Positions 41,368 through 43,436 of a stretch of DNA of 64,000 bases are shown here, in pieces. Position 1 is the first letter of the stretch, and every line of letters starts with the position of its first letter. The notes beneath the pieces were generated by a model. That model was given only the letters and a program-made list of their open reading frames with translations. It made no database searches and was not told the DNA's origin. Made by a program: the position numbers and the translations under genes. Source of the DNA: Kitasatospora phosalacinea (lineage in GTDB: Bacteria; Actinomycetota; Actinomycetes; Streptomycetales; Streptomycetaceae); the NCBI RefSeq assembly GCF_000717185.1, contig NZ_JNYE01000008.1:36414-100413 (forward strand), given 5' to 3'.

Positions 41368-41413
41368 GCCGATGGGCCGTTGGGCCACCGATTGGCTGGC
41401 GGCCCAGCGGCTC
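41366..41413. terminator. Bidirectional hairpin between the amidase and the sigma-GH128 gene
   Basis: Arms GAGCCGATGGGCCG (41366-41379) and CGGCCCAGCGGCTC (41400-41413) pair at 13 of 14 positions. The hairpin overlaps both stop codons and can serve both strands. Confidence 0.75.
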
Positions 41414-43436
41414 AGCGGGCGGCCTGGTAGGCGCGGCCCGCGGCGGTGGGGGTGGTGCCGTCGGTGAACAGGCCGCTGCTGGGCTTCGCCGGGTCCGCGC
41501 CGAGGCCGAACCAGGCGTAGCGCTGGAGGTAGGGCAGCGCGTCGAGGGCCTTGGTGGAGGCGGTGACGAAGGCGGCCTGCTGGTCGGCGGTGGGGAAGCG
41601 GGTGCCCTGGGAGAAGTCGATCAGGGCGTACTCGGTGAGCCAGATCGGCTTGTGGTAGCGCTGGTGGACGGCCTCCAGGTAGGAGGTCAGCTGCTGGACG
41701 GCCTGCGGGGTGCGGAAGTCGCCGCCGTACCAGTGCAGTGCGATGAAGTCGACCCGGTACCCCTTGGCGGCGGCCCCGGACATGAAGCGGTCCAGCCAGC
41801 CGCCGGGCGTGTCGGCCCCGTACGCGACCGCCGGGCTGCCCAGCGTCTGCCCGGCCTGCATCAGCTTCGGCCACAGGTCCAGGGCCTGGTCGACCGTCAT
41901 GTTCGACTGGGACGCCATGTCGGGCTCGTTGAAGCCGAGCAGGTAGGGGCCGTTGGCGCGGGCCTGGGCGAGGGCGCCGTCGGTGACGGAGGACGCGCCC
42001 CAGATCATCGGGACGAAGGAGGCCGAGGCGGGCGTGGTGATGCCGGGGTGCTGCGGCGCCCAGGTGTAGTACCAGCCCGCCCCGGAGGCGGCGAGCGCCT
42101 GGCTCACCCCGTCGAACGACCACACGCCGACGCCCTTGCGCGCGGACGTGGCGATCCCGGCCGGGGGCGCGGGCCGCTCGGCTGACGGCGAAGGGGCGGA
42201 CGGCGAAGGAACGGACGACGGGACCGCGGGGGACGGTGGGGCGGACGGCGACGCCGGGGCCGACGGCGAGGAGGCCGCGGACGAGGTCGCGTCGGGCAGC
42301 GGCAGGGCGGCCGCGGCGGCTGCGGGCGTCGCGGTCGACGCCGCCCGCGGGTCGGCCTGCCCGGGGGTCAGTTCGGCCCCGATCAGGACGGCGGCCGCCA
42401 CCAGCGCCACGGCCGCGCCGCCGAGCACCGGTTTGGGGACGCCGGAGGACGCACGCCGGTGCCCGGCCCGCCCGCGGGAGCGGCCCCGGTGTCCGCCCGG
42501 CCCCCGCCCCGGCCCCGTACCGTCCGCGCCGGGGCCGTCGAGGCCCGCGGGACCGTCGAGGCCGGCGAGGCCGTCGAGGCCGGCGAGGCCGTCGAGGCCG
42601 GCGAGGCCGTCGAGGCCGGCGAGGCCGGCGAGGCCGGCGAGGATCCGGGCCGGGTCGAGGGTCGGCGGGACGGCGAGCAGCGGCAGGCCGTACAGCAACC
42701 GTTCGGCGGGGAGCAAGTCGTGCCGGGTTCCGGCGCAGCGTTCGCAGTCGCGCACGTGCCGGGCCAGGCGCTTGCGCCACAGCGGGGCGGGGGTGCCGTT
42801 CCAGCCGGTGGCGGCCGTGTCCAGGGCGGGGCAGCGCGGGTCGGCGGCGAGGGCGCGCACCACCAGGCGGGAGAGTTCGAGCTGCTTCTTCATCCGGCCG
42901 GTCCGGACGGCGGCGTGGCCGGAGCTGAGGCCGAGTGCGGAGACCAGGTCGGCCTGTTCGAGTTCGCCGGTCTCCTTGAGCCACCACAGGGCGAGCAGTT
43001 CGCGGTCGTCGGGGTCGAGCCAGCGGGTGGCCTCGGCGATCTCGCGGCGCTGTTCGGTGAGGCCGAGGCGCAGGATGGTGAGGCCGGCGAAGTCCAGTGC
43101 GGGGTCGGGGATCGCCTCGGCGTCCTCCAGGCGGGCGGAGCGGTCGAGGGCGGCGGCCCGGTCCTGCTGGCGGTTGCGCACCTGCCGGACGGCGATGGCG
43201 ACCAGCCAGGACCGGAAGGCGGCGGGGTCCCGCAGGTCGGACAGTCCGCGGACCGCGCGCAACAGCGTCTCCTGTACGACGTCGTCGGTGTCGGCGTGGC
43301 CGTTCAGCGCCCGGCCGACGATGTTGTAGACCAGCGGCAGGCTCTGGGCCACCAGTTCCTCCAGGGCCCGCCGGTCGCCGGCGCGCGCCGCGGTCACCGT
43401 CCCGCTGTCGGGTCCACTGCGTCTGGTGTGCGGCAT
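41412..43436 (-). CDS. Transmembrane sigma factor / zinc anti-sigma motif / GH128 glucanase fusion
   Basis: 674 residues in one uninterrupted frame. Residues about 20-190 are an ECF sigma factor (region 2 around DTDDVVQETLLRAVRG; region 4 around LDPDDRELLALWWLKE and ADLVSALGLSSGHAAVRTGR). Residues 227-234 (HVRDCERC) match the HxxxCxxC zinc motif of anti-sigma factors. LAGLDG repeats (about 266-300) and a basic stretch lead to a transmembrane helix (about 337-355) and a Ser/Pro/Ala wall-spanning linker (about 365-430). The outer domain (435-674) is GH128/Asl1-like, with putative catalytic Glu504 (GFNEPD) and Glu602 (LTEYA), suggesting beta-1,3-glucan binding or cleavage. ATG 43436 is used. This could tie polysaccharide sensing directly to transcription. 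Confidence 0.85.
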   Translation of the reverse strand: MPHTRRSGPDSGTVTAARAGDRRALEELVAQSLPLVYNIVGRALNGHADTDDVVQETLLRAVRGLSDLRDPAAFRSWLVAIAVRQVRNRQQDRAAALDRSARLEDAEAIPDPALDFAGLTILRLGLTEQRREIAEATRWLDPDDRELLALWWLKETGELEQADLVSALGLSSGHAAVRTGRMKKQLELSRLVVRALAADPRCPALDTAATGWNGTPAPLWRKRLARHVRDCERCAGTRHDLLPAERLLYGLPLLAVPPTLDPARILAGLAGLAGLDGLAGLDGLAGLDGLAGLDGPAGLDGPGADGTGPGRGPGGHRGRSRGRAGHRRASSGVPKPVLGGAAVALVAAAVLIGAELTPGQADPRAASTATPAAAAAALPLPDATSSAASSPSAPASPSAPPSPAVPSSVPSPSAPSPSAERPAPPAGIATSARKGVGVWSFDGVSQALAASGAGWYYTWAPQHPGITTPASASFVPMIWGASSVTDGALAQARANGPYLLGFNEPDMASQSNMTVDQALDLWPKLMQAGQTLGSPAVAYGADTPGGWLDRFMSGAAAKGYRVDFIALHWYGGDFRTPQAVQQLTSYLEAVHQRYHKPIWLTEYALIDFSQGTRFPTADQQAAFVTASTKALDALPYLQRYAWFGLGADPAKPSSGLFTDGTTPTAAGRAYQAAR

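Follow-up and report, generated by a model that had tools for sequence, protein, structure and literature searches.

A tethered sigma factor with a predicted outer beta-1,3-glucanase domain in Kitasatospora phosalacinea: a candidate glucan-sensing switch and its promoter motif

The gene and its one-chain product

Within a 64,000-nucleotide stretch of the Kitasatospora phosalacinea genome (contig NZ_JNYE01000008.1; the window hereafter), a single gene joins a sigma factor of the extracytoplasmic function (ECF) type, a zinc anti-sigma-like (ZAS) domain, a membrane helix and a predicted GH128 domain in one chain (Table 1). As a first-pass annotation of the DNA had described, it is one uninterrupted frame; that annotation named no strand, and the coding strand of 41412-43436 is the minus strand, the plus strand not being the gene. 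A protein search scored 7990 candidates and found 3155 relatives, of which the best 120 were aligned with the query (121 sequences). They come from Kitasatospora, Streptomyces, Actinacidiphila, Micromonospora, Planotetraspora and others, and all of these best 120 carry the sigma and Glyco_hydro_cc Pfam domains in one protein.

Table 1. Features of the sigma-GH128 locus in the window, with strand and basis of assignment
Feature	Position	Strand	Basis
Sigma-ZAS-transmembrane-linker-GH128 gene	41412..43436	-	674 codons, ATG to TGA, one open reading frame (ORF)
Sigma region 2 domain, residues 11-106	43119..43406	-	Pfam PF04542; helices in AlphaFold2 (AF2) model
Sigma region 4-like helical domain, residues 128-197	42846..43055	-	TIGR02937 reaches 187; AF2 helices
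Zinc anti-sigma-like domain, residues 202-260, C202-H227-C231-C234	42657..42833	-	residue conservation
18-bp tandem repeat coding LAGLDG	42533..42642	-	6.1 copies
Transmembrane helix, residues 336-354	42375..42431	-	hydrophobicity; N-terminus inside by charge
Ser/Pro/Ala outer linker, residues 355-428	42153..42374	-	sequence, AF2 model
Predicted GH128 subgroup I domain, residues 431-674	41415..42146	-	Pfam, structure comparison
E504 codon	41925-41927	-	candidate catalytic Glu
E602 codon	41631-41633	-	candidate catalytic Glu
Predicted autoregulated promoter TTTCTGTTGGC-N17-GTCTCC	43485..43518	-	starts 82 nt ahead of ATG
Divergent predicted promoter, one -10 mismatch (GTCACC)	43538..43570	+	weight matrix
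22-codon ORF MARGRRRPGTGSASGRRARSPG	43615..43683	+	likeness to start of Streptomyces thaumatin-like gene (MARGRRRHG...)

The annotation had credited the N-terminal part with sigma regions 2 and 4. Region 2 is borne out by a Sigma70_r2 (PF04542) match at residues 28-92 (E 1.7e-12), and the TIGR02937 sigma70-ECF profile matches residues 24-187 above its cut-off; for region 4, a Pfam search of the 674-residue protein gave no match, and the AF2 model has helices at residues 128-197. A fold search with the whole model was dominated by glycosidases and hardly probed the sigma and ZAS parts. The HxxxCxxC motif noted earlier is present as HVRDCERC, and a cysteine that the annotation had left unnamed, C202, lies 25 residues ahead of H227, giving the pattern C-x24-H-x3-C-x2-C; this residue could complete a four-ligand site. 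C202, H227, C231 and C234 are invariant in all 121 aligned sequences, and the C-H-C-C set is kept in 85/85 aligned members of a wider family set. The best solved match to the profile of this domain is the anti-sigma factor DdvA, at a weak E of 0.03, and zf-HC2 matches weakly in seven of 30 sequences and not in the segment from our protein.

The membrane helix recurs in 120/121 aligned sequences, and its sigma side is the more positive in all 120 that have one; the remaining sequence (P0092, 510 aa) lacks such a helix by the hydrophobicity measure. The Ser/Pro linker and the LAGLDG repeats reported earlier are likewise present, the latter as an 18-bp array. Because none of the best 120 relatives has the LAGLx pattern, and because the repeat region is the least conserved part of the protein in the alignment, the array is best read as slippage within a free linker. 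We therefore rejected the repeat as a conserved protease site, and the earlier suggestion that the sigma domain is released by proteolysis within it is not supported, the repeat being confined to this protein among those aligned.

The outer domain matches Glyco_hydro_cc over residues 450-670. Both glutamates singled out by the annotation align with the catalytic pair of AmGH128_I (E504 with E102, E602 with E199), the residues altered in the structures 6uat and 6uas/6ufl. They are invariant in 121/121 aligned sequences, and the pair is kept in all 74 locus rows that span both positions. With the fold and the catalytic pair both those of GH128 subgroup I, the sequence supports the prediction of a subgroup I beta-1,3-glucanase domain.

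A conserved promoter-like motif and the genes behind it

Upstream of the family genes lies a motif with the consensus TTTCYGTTRTCC, a spacer of 14 or 15 bases, then SGTCTCC. Its strict expression matches 49 of 62 upstream regions (61 from family genes in relatives' loci, one from the window gene), and a weight matrix built from these 49 reaches at least 15 bits in 59 of the 62. A matrix from 25 sites outside the named Streptomycetaceae recovered 25/25 Streptomycetaceae upstreams and 0/500 shuffled sequences, in a held-out test that was not wholly blind, the expression having been written after all upstreams had been viewed by eye. Over 0.98 Mb of loci plus the window, 102 matches of at least 12 bits were found, versus five in a Markov control. 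The window site has GTTGGC where the consensus has GTTATC; it fails the strict expression and scores 23.6 in the matrix. In our strain's genome a looser pattern occurs once. With up to one mismatch allowed there are three sites, two of them in the window (ahead of the gene and on its divergent side) and the third in the promoter of a sister sigma gene on contig C151; the reversed control gave none.

Other copies of the motif in the vicinity of sigma-GH128 genes stand before genes for thaumatin-like, F5/8C-DUF1996 and F5/8C-GH128 proteins, as typed by Pfam on examples. Stand-alone GH128 genes, none of whose upstreams entered the matrix, have a site of at least 15 bits in 11 of the 15 cases with upstream DNA (L003, L018, L019, L023, L024, L028, L034, L035, L039, L045 and L047, and not L032, L043, L054 or L074). 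Six of the loci with such genes (L028, L034, L035, L039, L043 and L054) are from Micromonospora and encode a helix-linker-GH128 protein devoid of sigma and ZAS parts; a weaker copy of the motif lies upstream in four of these. Genome-wide, 13 of 14 genomes that each carry a sigma-GH128 gene have sites, 29 in total against 0 in the control; the Lentzea genome had no motif site in this genome-wide search. Behind the 29 sites lie seven sigma-GH128 genes, five GH128, eight DUF1996, four thaumatin, two alginate lyase and two PATR genes (the PATR matches being below the Pfam cut-off) and one unassigned; the typing used 29 of 30 called ORFs, the thirtieth duplicating another, and found no CAP protein.

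In a survey of 70 genomes of the genus, 53 have pattern sites, 102 in all (control, 0), and 52 of the 66 genomes with a family sigma gene have sites. Of these sites, 20 immediately precede a family sigma gene and 32 precede a different gene that has one within 4 kb. Five of the 32 are the divergent site of a sigma-GH128 gene; the other 27 lead to a CAP protein without a sigma part (phmmer, one CAP domain). The adjacent sigma gene has a CAP outer domain in 27/27 pairs, and in 26 the motif precedes it; as the pairs mostly represent a single gene pair inherited within one genus, they do not count as 27 independent events. Among 86 downstream proteins searched against Pfam (of 87 called ORFs, L102:1912-2901 being left out, with 15 of the 102 sites having no ORF by the rule used), CAP accounts for 46, sigma-fused ones included, sigma for 20, YtkA for four, GH128 for three and alginate lyase for two. 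The motif thus has other neighbours too, as the YtkA and alginate lyase counts indicate; at L082, L085, L096 and L104 it stands before genes of a YtkA-like family, weakly matched in Pfam, and no sigma gene of the sigma-ZAS family lies within 4 kb. The conserved, promoter-like motif marks sigma genes and secreted glucan-related proteins alike.

Sister proteins and the divergent side of the locus

Family members occur in 66 of the 70 genus genomes (118 matches listed, 117 after two pieces of one gene were joined). Our strain has three: the GH128 protein of the window, a CAP protein (L176, G000:C151) and a right-handed beta-helix protein (L177, G000:C106), with the motif before L176 and none before L177. 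Other outer domains are AbfB (L188), an unnamed one in L075 and L187, and another unnamed one in L186. The outer domains of L187 and L075, which have no Pfam match, look alike by eye, and their hosts belong to different bacterial families. L191, L192 and L195 end shortly past the ZAS domain, with neither membrane helix nor outer domain. Of 20 genus members fetched for their outer domains, 12 have the motif. On a tree of the sigma-ZAS part (85 of 92 family rows, seven with a masked or contig-cut outer part being left out), the outer-domain labels change about 10 times, a count that is approximate as the CAP proteins L117 and L180 were labelled 'other', versus a mean of 30 for shuffled labels. 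Because of this difference, we read the outer part as mostly inherited and sometimes exchanged.

On the divergent side, the gene in Streptomyces loci L014, L016 and L021 encodes a membrane-anchored thaumatin-like protein starting MARGRRRHG (Pfam run on L014), and its site has the same -10 element, GTCACC, as the window. The 22-codon ORF, MARGRRRPG..., is present in the window, L009 and L130; elsewhere the corresponding ORFs span 26 (L099), 15 (L086) and 12 codons (L102), and in the stretch looked at L088 has no such start and L089 has a longer ORF in a different frame. The ORF is probably what is left of the thaumatin-like gene that stands divergently in Streptomyces relatives, and its promoter seems to have outlived that gene. 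An intact thaumatin gene behind our divergent promoter was rejected, as there is just the 22-codon ORF there and no PF00314 match, in a search in which no control gave one either. About 600 nt past the divergent promoter, two neighbouring ORFs (44196-47542, plus strand) look by eye like duplicated ATP-binding cassette proteins.

A candidate surface sensor and its known parallels

From the architecture, the conserved sites, the charge-based topology, the motif and the genes behind it, all established at the level of sequence, we infer glucan as the signal, an active sigma held by the ZAS domain and released by proteolysis, and this sigma as the reader of the motif. We think it likely that the protein is a one-protein surface sensor and transcription switch, in which a glucan-engaged GH128 domain releases the tethered sigma onto motif promoters. 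The zinc anti-sigma domain next to them would keep sigma regions 2 and 4 at the membrane in an inactive state, and the outer domain would bind, and probably cut, beta-1,3-glucan, most likely from fungal walls. The Ser/Pro linker and the one membrane helix would relay this engagement, and the sigma part would be released, probably by intramembrane proteolysis. The freed sigma would read TTTCYGTTRTCC-N14/15-SGTCTCC promoters: that of its own gene and, in relatives, also those of genes for secreted proteins (GH128, thaumatin-like, F5/8C-DUF1996). The one-protein signalling device of the first-pass annotation therefore stands as a single-chain tethered sigma with ZAS-like and predicted outer glucanase domains, and the promoter-like motif speaks for its sensing role; cleavage in the repeat region is the part that is not supported.

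A broader proposal, which we regard as nearly an even call, is that one chassis carries swappable outer domains, that the two types tested switch on secreted proteins of their own outer kind, and that the cell keeps a captive copy of the effector as its sensor. The exchangeable chassis would consist of ECF sigma, C-H-C-C anti-sigma, helix and Ser/Pro linker, would occur in Actinobacteria, and would carry GH128, CAP, beta-helix, AbfB or unnamed domains with one shared promoter type. Through a captive copy the cell would report whether its own weapon would meet its target; in our strain that copy is the sole GH128, and sensor and weapon would therefore be one molecule.

Several observations weigh against these interpretations. 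Our strain's genome has one GH128 domain only, no secreted effector behind the motif and no PF00314 thaumatin, in a search that lacked any control that gave a match. The motif is missing before three of the 62 family genes (L019, L075 and the second gene of L004) and before 8 of the 20 genus members, the beta-helix sister included, and its held-out test was imperfectly blinded. For about half of the genus sites (50/102), no sigma gene of the family lies within 4 kb on the same contig; 14 of the 66 sigma-bearing genomes have no strict site, and one of the four sigma-less genomes (G043) has one. Some sites lead to YtkA-like, metalloprotease-like or alginate-lyase-like genes, and in Herbidospora (L037, L038, L041 and L042) the divergent motif leads to a DUF305/DUF4142 lipoprotein-like gene (Pfam run on L037). 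The likeness of the zinc domain's profile to anti-sigma factors is weak.

Among the alternatives, we give roughly one chance in four to a GH128 domain that merely binds as a sensor, catalysis being irrelevant, as for RsgI6, whose GH10 domain binds its polysaccharide at very low activity (PMC4711584); the two catalytic glutamates, unneeded for binding alone, are nevertheless conserved throughout both sets. It is improbable that the C-H-C-C site provides the trigger by sensing redox or zinc status, with an outer domain that just positions the protein or digests glucan. The cysteine-plus-HCC pattern does resemble that of the redox anti-sigma factor RsrA, but an identical zinc site stands alongside very different outer domains (85/85), and the kind of target gene tracks the outer domain, which argues for the outer domain as the input. 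More improbable still is that the protein works as a surface glucanase and keeps its sigma and zinc parts as relics or only as a cytoplasmic anchor: the Micromonospora proteins indicate that the enzyme can stand alone, yet sigma region 2 and the ZAS domain hold many invariant residues and a matching motif precedes 59/62 family genes. An artefact joining two genes by frameshift or misassembly has next to no probability, and we rejected it on the two-domain chain common to the best 120 relatives, even though in draft loci L031 and L048 the two halves lie in separate overlapping frames with masked stretches.

Should the rule that sensor mirrors effector hold, the outer domain of each member would predict its regulon, and the chassis could be adapted into a plug-in sensor for polysaccharides. 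The GH128 branch hints at a possible fungus-sensing response in Streptomyces relatives. With the motif and the target list, one reporter and a few glucans would suffice for a direct test of what these sigmas sense and control.

A sigma-ZAS fusion with an outer glycosidase domain is not new. Proteins of groups ECF52 and ECF53 share with ours a sigma domain, a fused zinc finger, a membrane helix, a proline-rich outer linker and an outer carbohydrate-related domain, in some of them a predicted glycosidase, in Actinobacteria (PMC8999054, PMC10766802, PMC5826349), and proteolytic release has been proposed for them (PMC8999054). Our protein has an ECF sigma domain (PF04542, TIGR02937), an invariant C-H-C-C site with a weak profile match to anti-sigmas, a membrane helix followed by an outer proline-rich extension, and GH128 as the outer glycosidase domain, a likeness in domain features. 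SCO4117, an ECF52 member studied by knockout (PMC5826349), differs in carrying a carbohydrate-binding module and in its reported motif, CSGYN-17-SRHA. According to a 2024 review, the predicted glycosidase domains of ECF52/ECF53 are still without experimental validation (PMC10766802). Our searches found no literature on a GH128-sigma regulon or its motif, the predicted ECF52 signature in print lying outside them; because PMC5826349 places that signature in Pinto and Mascher, the motif may be partly in print already. As far as the literature searches tell, the additions here are the promoter motif and the mirrored targets.

Other systems share single elements with ours. In AmGH128_I (6uaq), an endo-beta-1,3-glucanase of GH128 subgroup I, the solved chain is the glucanase domain only. 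IutY (ECF243) is likewise a sigma with a C-terminal membrane extension and is freed by Prc and RseP; it is from Pseudomonas and responds to aerobactin, and the excerpt of the source mentions no outer glycosidase (PMC8999054). The closest working parallel is sigI6/RsgI6 of Clostridium thermocellum, where the outer glycosidase resembles the target enzyme (the RsgI6 GH10 domain is 57% identical to the xylanase Xyn10D) and autoregulation occurs, as proposed here (PMC4711584), and where the RsgI membrane helix is cut by RseP (PMC12203970). That clostridial pair consists of separate sigma and anti-sigma proteins of the sigI type, whereas ours is one ECF-type chain with conserved catalytic residues; our protein would work alike without being a member.
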